From Desulfosporosinus acidiphilus SJ4 (GTDB lineage Bacteria > Bacillota > Desulfitobacteriia > Desulfitobacteriales > Desulfitobacteriaceae), in contig NC_018068.1 in the NCBI RefSeq assembly GCF_000255115.2, positions 2,451,977 through 2,515,976 of the forward strand: a stretch of 64,000 nucleotides of DNA. Direction: 5' to 3'. A model generated the notes under the pieces. It made no database searches. It had not been told where the DNA came from and saw only the letters and a program-made list of their open reading frames with translations. Each line of letters begins with the position of its first letter. Position 1 is the stretch's first letter. Both the position numbers and the translations under genes were made by a program. Positions 3,441 through 45,005 of this stretch are shown here, in pieces.

Positions 3441-5075
3441 GGGATTACTGAACAGTCCCCATATTTTTAGTTTCTAGGCAACAAACAAAATCTCCCAACT
3501 CGAAAAAAGGCGTTTCCCAAAAAAGGTACAAAAGATCCCGGAGGCGCTTCCCCAGGTTCATGATGATGAACTGTAAGCCAATGACCGTCTCACTCGTTTC
3601 TTTGAGACGTACCATTATTCGACCTAGTCCATAACGACGTTTTCCTTCACCGAATTTCGCCTCGACTGCATTTCTTAGGCCTGCCTCTTGTTTCTCTAGC
3701 CGCCTTTGTTCTAAATGCTCTTTTTTATCCTTCGAGGGTCGACCTAGTTTGGGCCCGTTAAGCCGAATGCCATGTAACTTGCAGTACTGCAGGTTGTCTC
3801 GGTTCCGATATATTTTATCGGCAATCACGGATTCAGGATAGTTTCCATGGCGCTCCTTATAGGTTTCTACCGAATCAATCAGGGTGGTGCCCTCATTAAA
3901 GGCTTCCCAACTCAACTTCTCGATCCAAGCAAATCCGTTGACGATACTTATGGCAACTTTCGCTCCAAATTCTGTGGCTGCTGTTTTTTTACCCCTCACA
4001 ATCGGGCGAACATGCGGTTGGCTAATGCTCACGATACGCTCTTCTATAGTGTGGACTCGTTTGTCATACATGGTTTTTTGCTGTTCAAAGAGTGTTTGTA
4101 TGGTTTCTAAGTCTTTTTGCTGCCGTTTACTGAGTCCTTCTGGGTACTTGGCTGATAGTTTCAAGACGATCTGAAGGTCTCTTGTAACGAAGCTCAGCTG
4201 TTTCCGAATGGCCTTGCGGATTTCACGACTTCTGGGTTTCCGATTCTTTTCTAACTTCAGATAGAGTTTACGTGCCTTTTGTCGATAGGTTCTTGGCTTG
4301 AGCTCTTTCCCTATTTGATTCTCATGCAAGGTGTCCACCATGGCCTCTAACTTTTCCCGTGCGTCATTTAGTAGAGAAAAATCCGTGGGATATTTCACAT
4401 CGGCCGGGGTGCATGTGGCATCCAAAATGAGTTTTCCGTGGTTTTGTTGGGGTGGTTGCTCACTGCTTGCTTGATCTTCACGACGATTGTCGTCTGTACA
4501 ACCTGAACTTGGTGGGGGAGTGTTTTGATCTTTATGATCTTCAGTTTCCGTCTTTGTTTCTCCCTTACATAAGGCTTCGTTCAGTTCAGCAATTACCTTA
4601 GCGTCGAGGCGTTTCCGAAAATGGACCATACTCGATGAATCGAACGGTGGAGTGGTTTGAAATTCCTCCAGCCCGATGAAGTATTGCAAATAGGGGTTTT
4701 CCATGATTTGTTGGACGGTTTCTTCGTCGGAAAATCCACACTTTTCTTTGATGATGAGGGCACCCAATGCGACACGAACTGGTTTCGCAACATTTCCAGT
4801 ATGCTTTGGGAAATGAGAAGCATATCGCTCTTCAACAACGTTCCAGGGAATCAAATCGGCCATCTTGACCCAACGGTTATTCGCATCAAGTTTGCCGCCT
4901 GCAAAAAATCTGAAGTCTTCGAGTAAGCTAATTTGACCTGTAGGTTTTCGGTACATTTTCGTCCCCCATCTGCAAGGTTTTTCGACCATATTCATCCTTT
5001 ATCTTGCTTTATTATACCACGAAAATGGCCTTAGTTCCTACTCCCATGCAGGTTTCGAGGTTATTCAGTAATCCC
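3441..5075 (-). mobile_element. Complete IS5-superfamily insertion sequence (1635 bp)
   Basis: It is bounded by perfect 12-bp inverted repeats: GGGATTACTGAA at 3441-3452 and its complement at 5064-5075. TAATTA occurs on both sides (3435-3440 and 5076-5081). Because that word is itself palindromic, it may be a 6-bp target duplication, a TA duplication or an extension of the inverted repeat. The element is in inverted orientation to the partial copy at 1-1034. Confidence 0.9.
3445..4995 (-). CDS. IS5-superfamily DDE transposase (DUF772-type N-terminus)
   Basis: This is a full-length 516-aa transposase. The N-terminal region, roughly residues 20-140, is the DNA-binding DUF772-like domain (LEDFRFFAGGKLDANN...WNVVEERYASHF). 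A low-complexity linker rich in Glu, Gln and Pro spans about residues 145-190. The catalytic domain follows with DATCTPADVK, ADKIYRNRDN and the C-terminal ETVIGLQFIIMNL helix. A long Lys/Arg-rich insertion, likely coiled coil, separates the catalytic segments. The stop codon lies within the terminal inverted repeat. A second in-frame ATG two codons downstream could be the real start. The frame is intact, so the element may be active. Confidence 0.9.
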   Translation of the reverse strand: MNMVEKPCRWGTKMYRKPTGQISLLEDFRFFAGGKLDANNRWVKMADLIPWNVVEERYASHFPKHTGNVAKPVRVALGALIIKEKCGFSDEETVQQIMENPYLQYFIGLEEFQTTPPFDSSSMVHFRKRLDAKVIAELNEALCKGETKTETEDHKDQNTPPPSSGCTDDNRREDQASSEQPPQQNHGKLILDATCTPADVKYPTDFSLLNDAREKLEAMVDTLHENQIGKELKPRTYRQKARKLYLKLEKNRKPRSREIRKAIRKQLSFVTRDLQIVLKLSAKYPEGLSKRQQKDLETIQTLFEQQKTMYDKRVHTIEERIVSISQPHVRPIVRGKKTAATEFGAKVAISIVNGFAWIEKLSWEAFNEGTTLIDSVETYKERHGNYPESVIADKIYRNRDNLQYCKLHGIRLNGPKLGRPSKDKKEHLEQRRLEKQEAGLRNAVEAKFGEGKRRYGLGRIMVRLKETSETVIGLQFIIMNLGKRLRDLLYLFWETPFFELGDFVCCLETKNMGTVQ

Positions 5076-5096
5076 TAATTAGCTTGAATGCTGCAT

Positions 5097-5140
5097 ACCT
5101 AAGTAAGTTTACGAAACCGCAGACTTACTTAGGTTTCTTT
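5097..5140 (+). terminator. Strong intrinsic terminator, probably of the LTA-synthase-like gene
   Basis: ACCTAAGTAAGT (5097-5108) pairs perfectly with ACTTACTTAGGT (5123-5134), followed by TTCTTT. No gene on the plus strand lies between it and the IS. Removing the IS would place it about 30 bp behind the stop codon at 3432, the normal spacing for that gene's own terminator. Confidence 0.75.
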
Positions 5141-5157
5141 AATTCCTGCCCCCTAAG

Positions 5158-5241
5158 CCGCTGGCCAAGACGATAAGCGGACGAGCTTATTGCCGCACTG
5201 CGACTCATTACGCATGCTCCAGCAGTGTGGGTTTGCCGAGT
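5158..5241. repeat. 84-bp hairpin-forming intergenic element, copy 1
   Basis: This block matches 30044-30127 over exactly 84 bp with no gap needed (about 65 identical positions by eye). Conserved parts are CCGCTG, GACGATAAGCGGACGA and GCCGAGT. Two hairpins are visible: ATAAGC/GCTTAT around a GGACGA loop, and CCGCACTGC pairing with GCAGTGTGG. Differences between copies concentrate in the loop of the second hairpin, and one stem pair changes between A-U and G-U. It lies directly behind the terminator at 5097-5140. Confidence 0.7.
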
Positions 5242-5274: not shown

Positions 5275-5303
5275 TTGACGGATTTATTTGTAATTAGTAT
5301 AAT
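5275..5303 (+). promoter_or_regulatory. Sigma-A-type promoter for cydAB
   Basis: TTGACG at 5275-5280 and TATAAT at 5298-5303 are separated by 17 bp. This predicts a leader of roughly 170 nt before the cydA start at 5484. No clear Rex-type palindrome was seen in the leader. Confidence 0.75.
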
Positions 5304-13282: not shown

Positions 13283-13302
13283 AAGGAAAAGTGGATAAAT
13301 TT

Positions 13303-13403
13303 GAAAGCGGGGGAGCTGGAGAGGCCGGCTGAGATTGAGACCCTAAAAAGTCTGAGACCCTAAAACCTGATCTGGATAATGCCAGCGTAGGTAAGCAGTT
13401 ACT
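13303..13403 (+). ncRNA. TPP riboswitch (THI element)
   Basis: Conserved THI-box parts are present in order: a GGGGGAGC start, GGCTGAGA, ACCC, ACCTGATCTGG and ATAATGCCAGCGTAGG. It senses thiamin pyrophosphate, and the genes behind it (thiD, thiM, thiE) agree. The P3 region is extended by a 17-nt tandem duplication that repeats GAGACCCTAAAA at 13337-13348 and 13354-13365. An intrinsic terminator follows, so control is by transcription attenuation. Confidence 0.95.
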
Positions 13404-13420
13404 CTTTTTATGAAAATATT

Positions 13421-13491: not shown

Positions 13492-14295
13492 ATGAAAAAG
13501 GCATTAACTATAGCCGGCTCCGACAGCAGCGGAGGGGCAGGGATTCAAGCAGACTTAAAAACTTTTTCTGCCCATGGCATTTTTGGGATGAGTGTTATTA
13601 CGGCTGTAACTGCTCAAAACACCCAAGGCGTCTTTGCGGTACAAGATATTTCAAGAGAGGTGATCGCTGCACAAATTAAGGCGATTTTTGAAGACATTGA
13701 AGTTGATGGATTAAAGGTCGGTATGGTTTCACAAATATCGACCATTGAGATTATAGCAGAATTATTGAAAGTTTATGCGCCGAAGAATATTGTTATAGAT
13801 CCGGTTATGGTATCAAAAAGCGGCTACCATCTGCTAAACCCTCAAGCAGAGCTAACTTTAATTCGTGAACTTTTGCCTTTAGCAACTGTCGTAACCCCTA
13901 ATATTCCAGAGGCTGAGGTTATGACAAAAATGACCATTCAGAACCTTACCCAGATGGAGAGTGCAGCAAAATACATATATCAGATGGGGGCTAAAAATGT
14001 TCTTCTCAAAGGCGGGCATCTCGAAAACGATTCAACGGATATTCTTTACGATGGTCGGAACTTTAAGTATTATACTTCACAGCGTGTAAAGACAAAGAAC
14101 ACTCATGGAACTGGCTGTACTTTGTCTTCTGCCATAACATCCAATCTTGCTTTGGGCTATCCGTTAAGCGAAGCTGTCTCGCTGGCTAAAGATTACATTA
14201 TAGAAGCGATTGAACATTCTTTGGATATTGGGAAAGGTGTTGGACCTACTCATCACTTTTATTCACTTTACCAAAAAGCGGGATTTAATAATTAA
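13492..14295 (+). CDS. thiD: Hydroxymethylpyrimidine/phosphomethylpyrimidine kinase
   Basis: It phosphorylates HMP and HMP-P to the pyrimidine diphosphate needed for thiamin synthesis. The 267-aa product has ribokinase-fold signatures: AGSDSSGGAGIQADLKTF at the N-terminus, DPVMVSKSG in the middle and the anion-hole THGTGCTLSSA motif near residue 202. GGAGG lies 9 nt before the ATG. It is the first gene of the riboswitch-controlled operon. A stand-alone pyridoxal kinase role is less likely given the context. Confidence 0.95.
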   Translation: MKKALTIAGSDSSGGAGIQADLKTFSAHGIFGMSVITAVTAQNTQGVFAVQDISREVIAAQIKAIFEDIEVDGLKVGMVSQISTIEIIAELLKVYAPKNIVIDPVMVSKSGYHLLNPQAELTLIRELLPLATVVTPNIPEAEVMTKMTIQNLTQMESAAKYIYQMGAKNVLLKGGHLENDSTDILYDGRNFKYYTSQRVKTKNTHGTGCTLSSAITSNLALGYPLSEAVSLAKDYIIEAIEHSLDIGKGVGPTHHFYSLYQKAGFNN

Positions 14296-24090: not shown

Positions 24091-24180
24091 AGGAAGTATA
24101 ACTTTCGGTTGTATACTGCAAGAAGAGTCAATACGTGCGAAGACATTGACTTCATCTTCTAGCCTAGGTCAACGAGGAAG
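24091..24180. repeat. Dispersed palindromic repeat, copy R2
   Basis: GTATAAC-TTTCG-GTTGTATAC forms the hairpin at 24096-24116. The following TGCAAGAAGAGTCAATACG matches 41256-41280 with two changes in 24 bases, and GCGAAGAC recurs at 30227-30234. It starts straight after a terminator T-run. The remaining bases up to 24238 include a further AGGCCAGATGGCCA hairpin. Confidence 0.6.
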
Positions 24181-24238
24181 CCGCAGGCCAGATGGCCAAG
24201 TGTCGAGGGAGCAGGTAAGGATTTCTTTATCACTGTTT

Positions 24239-29958: not shown

Positions 29959-29987
29959 AAAAGGCCGTACTTATGCGGCCTTTTTTT
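29959..29987 (+). terminator. Terminator of the activator gene
   Basis: AAAAGGCCG (29959-29967) pairs with CGGCCTTTT (29976-29984), with seven Ts following the stem. Confidence 0.85.
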
Positions 29988-30043
29988 ATGAAAAAGTCCA
30001 CGGACATTTCCGTGCCGAACCTCAGGGCAGGTCCTGAGGTGAA

Positions 30044-30127
30044 CCGCTGACCCTGACGATAAGCGGACGATCTTATGGCCACACTGCAACCGGTAACAAA
30101 GAATCCTGCAGTGTGGATTGGCCGAGT
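30044..30127. repeat. 84-bp hairpin-forming intergenic element, copy 2
   Basis: Partner of 5158-5241. Here the second hairpin is CCACACTGCA/TGCAGTGTGG and the first is ATAAG/CTTAT. It is preceded by CACGGA/TCCGTG and CCTCAGG/CCTGAGG hairpins (29999-30039) and followed to about 30255 by more foldable sequence, including GAAGAC-TGT-GTCTTC. The whole structured stretch starts right after the terminator at 29959-29987. Confidence 0.7.
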
Positions 30128-30293: not shown

Positions 30294-30309
30294 TGGCATG
30301 AATATTGCT
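30294..30309 (+). promoter_or_regulatory. Sigma-54 (-24/-12) promoter
   Basis: TGGCATG-AATA-TTGCT matches the consensus TGGCAYG-N4-TTGCW, with the GG and GC doublets separated by exactly 10 bp. It lies about 50 bp before a ribosome site and the flavoprotein relic, then sucCD. Confidence 0.85.
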
Positions 30310-30350: not shown

Positions 30351-30464
30351 TTGGACATTGTTCGAATCAAAACTCATATACTTATCGTCGGCGGTGGGTT
30401 AGCCGGGTTAAGTCCTGCCATCAGGGCTGGACCTGGATTAGATGTTGCCATGCGGAAAACTTAA
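30351..30464 (+). pseudogene. Relic of an FAD-binding flavoprotein gene (37 codons left)
   Basis: After GGAGG, a TTG start opens a frame that reads DIVRIKTHILIVGGGLAGLSPAIRAG and stops at 30462. The GGGLAGLxxAIRA pattern is the N-terminal dinucleotide-binding motif of succinate dehydrogenase/fumarate reductase-type flavoproteins. Those proteins run to about 550-600 aa, and nothing of the rest is visible before sucC. The simplest reading is a large internal deletion that left the start of the first gene of the sigma-54 operon. Confidence 0.7.
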
Positions 30465-30571
30465 TCGAGCCACAACGATCCAGAGCATCTTGGGCTGGTT
30501 GGGAAAGTAAACTCGTTCAGCTAAAACTGAGATACAAATCTAACTTTGTAAGAAAAGAAAGCGGGGTAAAT

Positions 30572-31798
30572 ATGGGGAAACTATTAGAAAACCACAGTAA
30601 AAACCTTCTGAGGGAAGCAGGAGTTCTTGTGCCAAAACACGTGGTTGCCCGTTCACCGGAGGAAGCAGCTGAAAAAGCTGCCGAACTGGGCTTTCCTGTG
30701 GTATTGAAAGCCTTAGTACCTGTGGGAAAGCGTGGTAAAGCAGGGGCCGTCAAATTTGCTCAAAATGCCCAAGAAGCTTTTGAGCTGACGAGAGAATTAT
30801 TGGCCATGACGGTAAGGCATTTTCCGGTAGAGAAAGTCCTAATTGAAGAAAAAATCGCAATTGCTCAGGAATGGTACTTAGCAATTACGATTGATAAGAA
30901 AGCACAGACTCCCTTAATTATTGCCAGCTTAAAAGGAGGAGTTGATGTTGAGGAGTTGAGTCAAAGTGCACCGGAACAAATAATGACGAAATCTATCGAT
31001 CCAATTCTTGGGTTTGCCGAATTTCAAGCAAAAGAATTATGGTCTGAGCTTGGTTTGACTGGAAAACCTTTGACGTTAGCAACCCAAGCTTTAACATGCT
31101 TAGTTAAGATATTTCTTGCTAAAGATGCAACTCTTTTAGAAATCAACCCTTTAGTGCTTACCGAAAATGGAGACGTGGCAGCGGCTGCTTCAGTCATGAG
31201 TGTTGATGACAGCGCAATGTACAGACACCCTGAATTAGCAGCGATGGTTCAATTAGGGAGCGAAAGAACTTGGCGGCCTTTGACCGATTTAGAGAAAAGA
31301 ATGGTAGAAGTCAATGAATTAGATCCTTATCGGGGGACGGCCCGCTATACAGAAATGGATGGAGGAGAGATTGGATTTTTATGCGGCGGGGGAGGAGGAA
31401 GCCTTCTTTCTTTTGATGCTCTCGTTTCCTTCGGGGGAAGACCTGCCAATTACAGCGAGGTGGGGGGGAACCCGCCTGAACGAAAAGTTTTGGGGATCAC
31501 TAAAGGGATCTTAGCGAAACCGGGAGTCAAAGGGTTATTCGTTGCTCATAATATTACAAATAATACTCAGGTCGATGTTCTTGCTCAGGGAGTCGTTCAA
31601 GCTTTAAAGGAAATGGGAAAAGATCCAAAAATCTTTCCTGTGGTCGTGAGAGAGGCCGGTGTCAATGACGAAGCTGCAAGAGAAATATTCACTAAAACCG
31701 GAGTTGAATACTACGGGGACAATGCCACTATTACGGAAGCGGCTCAAAGAATGGTCGAGCGAATTAAAGCCTTAGAAATATCAGGGGAGGGGATTTAA
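30572..31798 (+). CDS. sucC: Succinyl-CoA ligase-type beta subunit (ATP-grasp)
   Basis: It works with the next gene to interconvert acyl-CoA and acid plus ATP. The 408-aa product has an N-terminal ATP-grasp domain with PVVLKALVPVGKRGKAGAVKFAQ and LEINPLVLTENGDV. A C-terminal CoA-ligase part includes EIGFLCGGGGGSLLSFDALVSFGGRPANYSEVGGNP. The Gly-rich segment departs slightly from the E. coli VNGAGLAM pattern, so the acid need not be succinate. A GGGG-containing ribosome site precedes the ATG. sucD begins 2 bp after the stop. The operon has a sigma-54 promoter and PrpR-type activator, which suggests use in organic-acid catabolism rather than a housekeeping cycle. Confidence 0.88.
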   Translation: MGKLLENHSKNLLREAGVLVPKHVVARSPEEAAEKAAELGFPVVLKALVPVGKRGKAGAVKFAQNAQEAFELTRELLAMTVRHFPVEKVLIEEKIAIAQEWYLAITIDKKAQTPLIIASLKGGVDVEELSQSAPEQIMTKSIDPILGFAEFQAKELWSELGLTGKPLTLATQALTCLVKIFLAKDATLLEINPLVLTENGDVAAAASVMSVDDSAMYRHPELAAMVQLGSERTWRPLTDLEKRMVEVNELDPYRGTARYTEMDGGEIGFLCGGGGGSLLSFDALVSFGGRPANYSEVGGNPPERKVLGITKGILAKPGVKGLFVAHNITNNTQVDVLAQGVVQALKEMGKDPKIFPVVVREAGVNDEAAREIFTKTGVEYYGDNATITEAAQRMVERIKALEISGEGI

Positions 31799-40018: not shown

Positions 40019-40037
40019 CAGTGACGAAAGTGTCCTG

Positions 40038-40062
40038 TGGGCGGTTTCGACGAAAACGCCCA
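40038..40062. other. Hairpin behind purL in a gene-free stretch
   Basis: TGGGCG (40038-40043) pairs with CGCCCA (40057-40062), extended by GTTT/AAAC. It lies within the 367-bp non-coding stretch 40019-40385 and may be the purL terminator, although no T-run follows. Confidence 0.45.
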
Positions 40063-40270
40063 GCCAATAACTAATGTTATGCCCAGAAGATGAACTCTAC
40101 CCCTCCGAAACAAAGAACGGAGAGCACTTCCACATAAGGGAAACGGGAGTCTCCGATTGGAGGTAAATAAGTATACGCAAGAGGAGTTAGAGTAATATCT
40201 TGGTAATCCCTTTGCAGGGTTTGAGAATTGTTTGTCGAAGACATACTCTGGGGCATTTTATATTAGGAGA

Positions 40271-41196: not shown

Positions 41197-41227
41197 CAGG
41201 TTTCCTTTAAGGAGACCTGTTTTTTTT
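41197..41227 (+). terminator. Intrinsic terminator after the DsrE-like gene
   Basis: CAGGTTTCC (41197-41205) pairs with GGAGACCTG (41211-41219, one G-U), followed by eight Ts. Confidence 0.88.
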
Positions 41228-41235
41228 ATGCTATC

Positions 41236-41330
41236 CGAAAGCAAAACTTGTGGTCGTATACTGCAAGAAAAGTTAATACGAGTGAAAACGGTGTCTTCGT
41301 CCTCCGGCATAAGTGCAACTTGGCAGTCAC
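41236..41330. repeat. Dispersed repeat, copy R4
   Basis: GTATACTGCAAGAAAAGTTAATACG is given in parts: GTATACTGCAAGAA at 41256 and AATACG ending at 41280. It matches copy R2 at 24111-24135. The downstream GTGTCTTCG at 41291-41299 matches 30237-30245. The 5' half of the palindrome is degenerate here. It starts within 10 bp of a terminator T-run. Confidence 0.55.
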
Positions 41331-44710: not shown

Positions 44711-44928
44711 GAAGGTGTTGTATTCATAGATGATTTATCCGATTTTTAAGAGGGGTTGTACCAAAACTTGTTGGCAGCCTCATTGAGTCCCCACTTTCAC
44801 TTGCATAATCATTATATAGAGGCATTCTCAGTCCACTATACTAGTTAAGGGAGAACGCCTTGGTTATTTGCTACCCACTTCGGACTTTTTGAATTAACAT
44901 TTTACACAGCCCCTGGGTCCTTCGTAAA

Positions 44929-45005
44929 CTTCAAGTGGGGTAGAGATCCCATCTGAAGCCCCGATGTTCAGTTTTAGCTGAACGAGTTCACTGGAGTATA
45001 GGGCG
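44929..45005. other. Structured intergenic stretch before the peptidase gene
   Basis: CTTCAAGTGGG pairs partly with CCCATCTGAAG (44929-44958). GTTCAG/CTGAAC forms a second hairpin (44966-44983), and GCCCC near 44958 can pair with GGGC at 45000-45003 to close them. No riboswitch class is recognised. The rest of 44711-45110 has no gene that I can see. Confidence 0.45.

Follow-up and report, generated by a model that had tools for sequence, protein, structure and literature searches.

Two intergenic stretches of the window, by which we mean the whole 64,000 nucleotides of Desulfosporosinus acidiphilus SJ4 DNA analysed here (NC_018068.1, positions 2,451,977 to 2,515,976, forward strand), resemble each other. 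Positions 5158–5241 and 30044–30127 align without gaps over 84 bp with 65 identities (77.4%), and the match of copy 2 to copy 1 in a genome-wide BLAST search (E = 2.7e-12) excludes chance. Terminator-like hairpins, read by eye, stand 5′ of both copies. The cydA gene (Cyt_bd_oxida_I) lies downstream of copy 1; copy 2 has a sigma-54 context, with an activator gene on its 5′ side and a TGGCATG-N4-TTGCT site at 30294 on its 3′ side (Table 1). A sequence-only reading of the window had described the pair and its setting in these terms, and had noted that the differences concentrate in one loop. Indeed, hairpin 2 has 11 of the 19 in its 20-nt loop; three others are at stem pairs, one is at an unpaired core position and four are in the flanks. 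The same reading had pointed to a stem pair that is G-U in one copy and A-U in the other. This exchange is present, yet copy 2 has two more pairs broken (G-G for G-U and C-U for C-G). Single-sequence folding was modest for the + strands of the two copies (z = −1.27 and −1.63), and the lowest-energy fold of copy 2 lacks hairpin 1.

Table 1. Positions of the two copies and of neighbouring or related features in the window
Feature	Position	Strand	Basis or remark
Terminator-like hairpin with T-rich tail, 5′ of copy 1	5098..5141	+	By eye; a similar one precedes the cydA promoter in L199 and L200
Host hairpin 5′ arm, copy 1 (CCGCTGGCCAAG)	5158..5169	+	Pairs with 5233–5241; core-less hosts elsewhere in the genome
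Core copy 1, 63 nt, two hairpins, ACGA...GGGT	5170..5232	+	Model R1, 84.6 bits, E = 4.3e-18 (genome 2457146–2457208)
Hairpin 1 of copy 1, 8-bp stem, loop GGACGA	5171..5192	+	Family structure count
Hairpin 2 of copy 1, 9-bp stem, variable 20-nt loop	5193..5230	+	Family structure count; loop differences
Host hairpin 3′ arm, copy 1	5233..5241	+	Flank pairing; core-less counterparts
Promoter-like site of cydA, TTGACG...TATAAT, 3′ of copy 1	5275..5303	+	Conserved in L199 and L200
Core-less host hairpin GCAGGCCAGATGGCCAAGTGTC, same type, behind another terminator-like hairpin	24183..24204	+	
Terminator-like hairpin with T run, 5′ of copy 2	29961..29988	+	By eye
Host hairpin 5′ arm, copy 2	30044..30055	+	Core-less hosts elsewhere in the genome
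Core copy 2, ACGA...GGAT, two broken stem pairs	30056..30118	+	Model R1, 73 bits, E = 4.3e-15 (genome 2482032–2482094)
Host hairpin 3′ arm, copy 2	30119..30127	+	Flank pairing
Sigma-54-type site TGGCATGAATATTGCT, 3′ of copy 2	30294..30309	+	Pattern match

The element had not been recognised as a known RNA, and no Rfam family reached its gathering score at either copy. Permissive scans of both copy regions gave sub-threshold matches only, including COG3860 (13.2 bits; cut-off 42.5), which shares 10 bases with the 5′ end of copy 2. Across the whole window the sole match at gathering score was a TPP riboswitch at 13299–13411 (60.5 bits), upstream of the ORF at 13492; at another locus (L183:1846–1950) a pan motif RNA (RF01749) scored 51.2 bits. 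Positions 3445–5081 are an insertion sequence (IS) that encodes a DDE transposase (minus strand), and its end (4700–5081) recurs in at least nine other places of the genome at ∼100% identity. The sequence-only reading had allowed for a transposon end; copy 1 is not part of this IS. Repetition of the IS stops near 5081, 77 bases short of the element, and the IS end was rejected as the element's source. Between copy 2 and the ORF at 30572, the stretch 30352–30560 resembles the start of an FAD-binding flavoprotein and is apparently broken (by eye). Other dispersed intergenic repeats of the window, which also occur at other genome loci, lie at 24092–24190, 41220–41326, 44757–44984 and 40021–40103; the first two lack the core, and each begins after a terminator-like hairpin.

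A search for further copies had been proposed, and many exist, both in this genome and in relatives, so that the description of a two-copy element holds for the window only. Queried with copy 2, BLAST returned 40 genomic matches. A model built from 42 diverse copies (R1, from alignment A2) gave 77 at E ≤ 0.1 and 70 at E ≤ 0.001, two of the latter inside the window; 15 of the 70 lie in truncated 5S rRNA genes and 55 elsewhere. In every context the shared unit spans 63 nt: ACGA, then hairpin 1 (loop GGACGA on an 8-bp stem), hairpin 2 (9-bp stem with a variable loop) and GGAT. These ends are not inverted repeats, and neither the terminal inverted repeats nor the target-site duplication of a classical MITE were found.

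The core is confined to one clade. It occurs in 25 of the 29 genomes of the genus, including all 16 with at least 90% completeness and at most 5% contamination, and in 32 of 82 genomes of the class, all from the family of the window's genome (0 of 37 in other families). In a phylum-wide sample of 398 genomes only five matched, again all from this family, and each of the 46 stretches carrying an exact 21-base pattern was from Desulfosporosinus. No core match was found among plasmids or phages in a distant-mode search, and an exact 24-base pattern was absent from viral contigs; on these null searches, cargo of plasmids, phages or viruses was rejected. In genome G013, 24 identical pairs among 26 core copies sit in different flanks, which suggests recent spread, and the window's genome has no identical pair among 47 core copies. 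Genome-specific clustering was not seen (0.35 within one genome against 0.32 shuffled). Since cores of one genome are no closer to each other, genome-by-genome bursts are not supported.

The positions flanking the core are part of a small host hairpin, which also exists without it. The host loop reads GGCC-ATG-GA-TGGCC in core-less form and GGCC-ATG-[ACGA...GGAT]-TGGCC with the core. In tandem host units one may carry a core next to a unit that does not (e.g. L003, L006, L008, L013, L015 and L017). Among the loci retrieved, we looked for core-less counterparts for 159 copies (203 less 15 at edges or too short, 12 duplicates and 17 head-to-tail), and found them for 83 and none for 76. The intergenic class had counterparts for 54 of 102 copies, with a junction of two bases in 39 (37 GA, 2 AA), one in 12 and three in three; the 5S-flank class had them for 29 of 57, with a junction of two bases in 19, one in seven, none in two and three in one, GG (10) and GA (8) being the commonest two-base junctions. 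The two classes were split by flank pattern, and at least one row counted as intergenic (L081:3111) is 5S-derived; the junction counts are not independent events, because many copies share one core-less counterpart. Where a counterpart was found, the core thus usually replaces two bases, mostly GA or GG, without obvious target duplication. The 76 copies with no counterpart and those with a one-base junction (12 intergenic and seven 5S) weigh against reading the core as a mobile insert. A core-less 5S sequence is a functional gene, and the direction there is therefore insertion. Sequence comparison makes the core-less state certain to be ancestral in two situations only, a 5S rRNA host and a locus at which relatives lack the block; at other sites it may result from precise loss.

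The arms of the host hairpin belong together. For 67 non-5S copies the mean Watson–Crick run between a core's own flanks was 4.03, compared with 3.32 for swapped flanks (maximum 3.60 in 300 trials) and 1.91 for shuffled ones. Own flanks pair better than swapped flanks, and the core therefore sits in loops of hairpins that themselves covary. By eye, and uncounted, the surroundings in G013 are a mosaic of further small hairpin modules in similar loops. Nested inserts are present (by eye), and there are insertions within RNA genes and in other repeats.

Orthologous loci give presence or absence directly. The argG and argH genes were matched in 29 of 29 genomes, and the gap between them holds an R1 core in the window's genome only (absent in 28). 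The gene-side matches are 14–16 nt apart in G008, G014 and G025 vs 139 in the window's genome, where, by eye, an addition of ∼120 nt follows immediately on the terminator, with the terminator and the argH start preserved; the automatic alignment placed the gap elsewhere, which does not affect presence or absence. In L274 a second, weak R1 match (21.8 bits) lies ∼1 kb from argH, outside the gap. Upstream of cydA the core was found at one of 22 loci and was absent in 21 relatives; in L199 and L200 the promoter shared with the window comes immediately after the terminator. The copy-2 locus yielded no clear empty site among orthologues. Addition of a block directly behind terminators that relatives also have would explain why both window copies start behind terminators.

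These comparisons bear on the idea that the element is a conserved cis-acting regulatory RNA, which would control the operons downstream of it as a riboswitch, leader or antiterminator element. Its two hairpins covary across the family, and its copies are intergenic with a strand bias: for the 55 non-5S copies, the flanking genes were both on the strand of the core in 24 cases, both opposite to it in five, convergent in 11, divergent in six and unresolved in three, six copies inside called ORFs of at least 90 aa (one of 569 aa) being left out. A terminator-like hairpin within 290 nt upstream was found by a home-made finder on the same strand for 25 of the 55 and on the opposite strand for nine; downstream the corresponding numbers were three and seven. 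However, the next promoter-like sites, predicted from pattern and conservation, lie 3′ of both window copies. Lying between a terminator and the next promoter-like site, neither copy is an obvious leader for cydA or the sigma-54 operon. The genes neighbouring the copies are unrelated, orthologous conservation is lacking at both loci described above, 15 copies are antisense in 5S pseudogenes and no described Rfam family matched. We therefore rejected a riboswitch or leader, given the downstream promoters, the absence in relatives and the near lack of compensation described below, and regard regulation of the downstream operons as highly improbable. Most likely the window copies are carried inertly, as passengers located after a terminator and ahead of the following promoter, and do not regulate cydA or the sigma-54 operon.

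The covariation needs to be read at two levels. Across the 42 diverse copies, 96.0% of pair cells were standard pairs vs 90.6% after shuffling, and the covariation score was 0.199 vs 0.102 shuffled (0 of 500 as high), structures slid along the alignment reaching 0.054 at most. Helix 1 covaries between subfamilies, changing from U-A to A-U in 12 copies, from A-U to G-C in nine and from G-C to U-A in five; the copies are related, several of them through one ancestry, and these changes are not independent events. The covariation that the sequence-only reading had proposed to test for is present across the family, but there is almost no compensation among the intergenic copies of this genome. For 56 intergenic matches, 88.8% of cells were paired vs 87.7% shuffled (2 of 1000 as high), with 92 one-sided breaks, 50 one-sided G-U changes and only nine compensated Watson–Crick pairs. 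The excess is nil in the younger half and small in the older half (24 of 1000). Such a small excess leaves room for a weak constraint. The 15 copies borne by 5S sequence, on the other hand, showed 96.8% pairing vs 89.6% shuffled. An excess of G-U over A-C, which could favour a role as RNA, was weak in the set of 42 (26:10, p = 0.011) and not significant in larger sets (56:40 and 26:18). The two sides of the stems change nearly independently in the intergenic copies, and the contention that the element is a conserved folded RNA or DNA rather than decaying spacer is not supported for them. A fold that is compensated between subfamilies, together with single intergenic copies that mostly decay, is the pattern expected if the structure serves the mobility of source copies and not a function of every single copy.

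Taken together, the core is dispersed in dozens of copies and present or absent at orthologous places. We consider it likely from these comparisons that the 84-bp match is a 63-nt non-autonomous two-hairpin mobile core in the loop of a small host hairpin, within composite intergenic repeats. Its mobility would be provided in trans, by machinery that recognises the folded single strand and inserts it where another hairpin has its loop. A requirement for movement would preserve helix 1 in source copies; once inserted, copies would decay.

The copies in 5S rRNA sequence form a separate group. All 15 are antisense to the rRNA, and the genome retains intact 5S genes (six among the loci scanned). 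In the three regions read, truncated 5S-like units stand behind an intact 5S gene or farther downstream, with a core at up to three places. Other species show the same arrangement, with cores adjoining or inside one another. The 5S-borne copies probably stem from few events. Two cores of this group in the window's genome (L165:5954–6019 and L164:16367–16432) have hairpin 1 replaced by a longer hairpin, CGATAGTCTCC..GGAGACTATCG, a module that also occurs alone in other host loops. In L068 (NZ_MASS01000098.1), positions 325–627 are a head-to-tail core array with a 60-base period that adjoins 5S-like sequence.

A 5S-borne copy of another genome coincides with a published sequence. The expanded 5S rRNA of Desulfitobacterium dichloroeliminans has been placed at NC_019903.1 2241573–2241816 (Stepanov and Fox, 2021; PMC7812874, Figure 2 legend), and our core match at 2241583–2241645 of that genome (G062, C1) lies inside it; the fetched DNA (L246) is 5S sequence containing the core. 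At least one published expanded 5S rRNA therefore has the core as its insert. The same paper reports 5S remnants in species including Desulfosporosinus orientis and D. youngiae and mentions intergenic motifs that resemble the thermoanaerobacterial segment (PMC7812874). Unlike our reading of a dispersed element, the parts of it covered here treat the inserts as belonging to 5S rRNA or 5S remnants, and those passages give no account of a dispersed intergenic family, host-hairpin sites or two-base replacement. In the literature searched, which covered few subscription papers, the dispersed core family is undescribed and this related 5S work was found.

How the core moves is less clear, and three routes were weighed. 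REPINs are inverted pairs of REP sequences tied to a Y1-type transposase. The core resembles REPs and REPINs as a short, dispersed hairpin repeat without a gene of its own, and a REP/REPIN-like repeat, or one derived from IS200/IS605, mobilised as single-stranded hairpins by a Y1 tyrosine transposase, would share its two hairpins and lack of obvious target duplication. Of the 29 genomes of the genus, 23 have a Y1_Tnp match. The intergenic copies mostly follow the leading strand, as inferred from rRNA direction (30 of 33 below 2.33 Mb and 8 of 11 above 3.38 Mb). The 5S copies do not, so that replication strand alone does not set orientation. We nevertheless think this origin unlikely. The stems of hairpins 1 and 2 are unrelated in sequence and are not inverted copies of one palindrome, neither a GTAG nor a CGTC tag was seen at the core ends, two target bases are replaced and the 15 5S-borne copies run opposite to the rRNA. 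Moreover, PF01797 is missing in four core-bearing genomes (G003 with seven copies, G025 with four, G027 with 12 and G005 with three), one of which is a complete single contig. Our search for this one family, Y1 transposase (PF01797), in the 29 genomes of the genus linked no enzyme to the movement of the core.

The second route leads through RNA, with integration into the loops of structured RNA (5S precursors or post-terminator hairpins), reverse transcription and recombination back into the genome. The insertions in hairpin loops and 5S rRNA are consistent with it, and missing duplications have led to a similar suggestion for the elements of Allomyces, in the part of the source covered here (PMC2800124). 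It too appears doubtful, since a sense-RNA target would not predict copies antisense to the 5S gene, and the strand signature of G-U over A-C is weak and confined to the set of 42. Finally, passive spread by gene conversion or template switching at hairpins would require no dedicated mobility machinery. Such a process fits the tandem arrays, both of cores and of 5S pseudogenes, the mosaic of modules and the short matching bases at the junctions. The junction is, however, usually the same across unrelated sites (two bases replaced, ends ACGA and GGAT), and identical cores occur in different flanks in G013, and we give passive spread a similarly small chance.

The kinds of element closest to the core are other small repeats, which we compared by their descriptions. 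The small dispersed repeats (SDRs) that Elhai and colleagues described in Nostoc in 2008 are reportedly 21–27 nt long, structured, nested, precisely placed and restricted to one clade. The core is likewise very small, structured with compensatory changes, nested, inserted at precise sites and confined to one clade; at 63 nt it is longer than SDRs, and it belongs to a different phylum. The double-hairpin elements of Allomyces mitochondrial DNA are said to have been described by Paquin and colleagues in 2000. According to the passages of a later source covered here, they form tandem hairpins in genes and spacers, lack target duplications and differ in frequency among related species (PMC2800124), all of which recalls the core, which is neither organellar nor fungal. 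Of the SDRs, SDR5 has been inserted precisely in HIP1, as far as the part of the source covered shows (PMC4390886). With repeats of the SDR and double-hairpin type the core shares presence or absence at orthologous places, a fold compensated between subfamilies, and RNA-gene and nested insertions.

A more far-reaching view, which we put forward tentatively and hold to be a possibility somewhat short of even, is that the family is a bacterial counterpart of the mitochondrial double-hairpin elements. It would be an ecosystem of structured 30–60-nt elements that nest in each other's hairpin loops and in 5S rRNA, with fixed two-base replacement and recognition as a folded single strand, and it would be the origin of the family's 5S expansion segments.

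These observations caution that covariation across a dispersed family need not imply a functional RNA at each place. They also point to the core as a source of inserts in 5S rRNA genes that have been treated as ribosomal expansion segments. Mobile elements this small are rare and their mechanism is unsolved; the core family offers clear signatures (fixed ends, two-base replacement and hairpin-loop sites) in culturable anaerobes.
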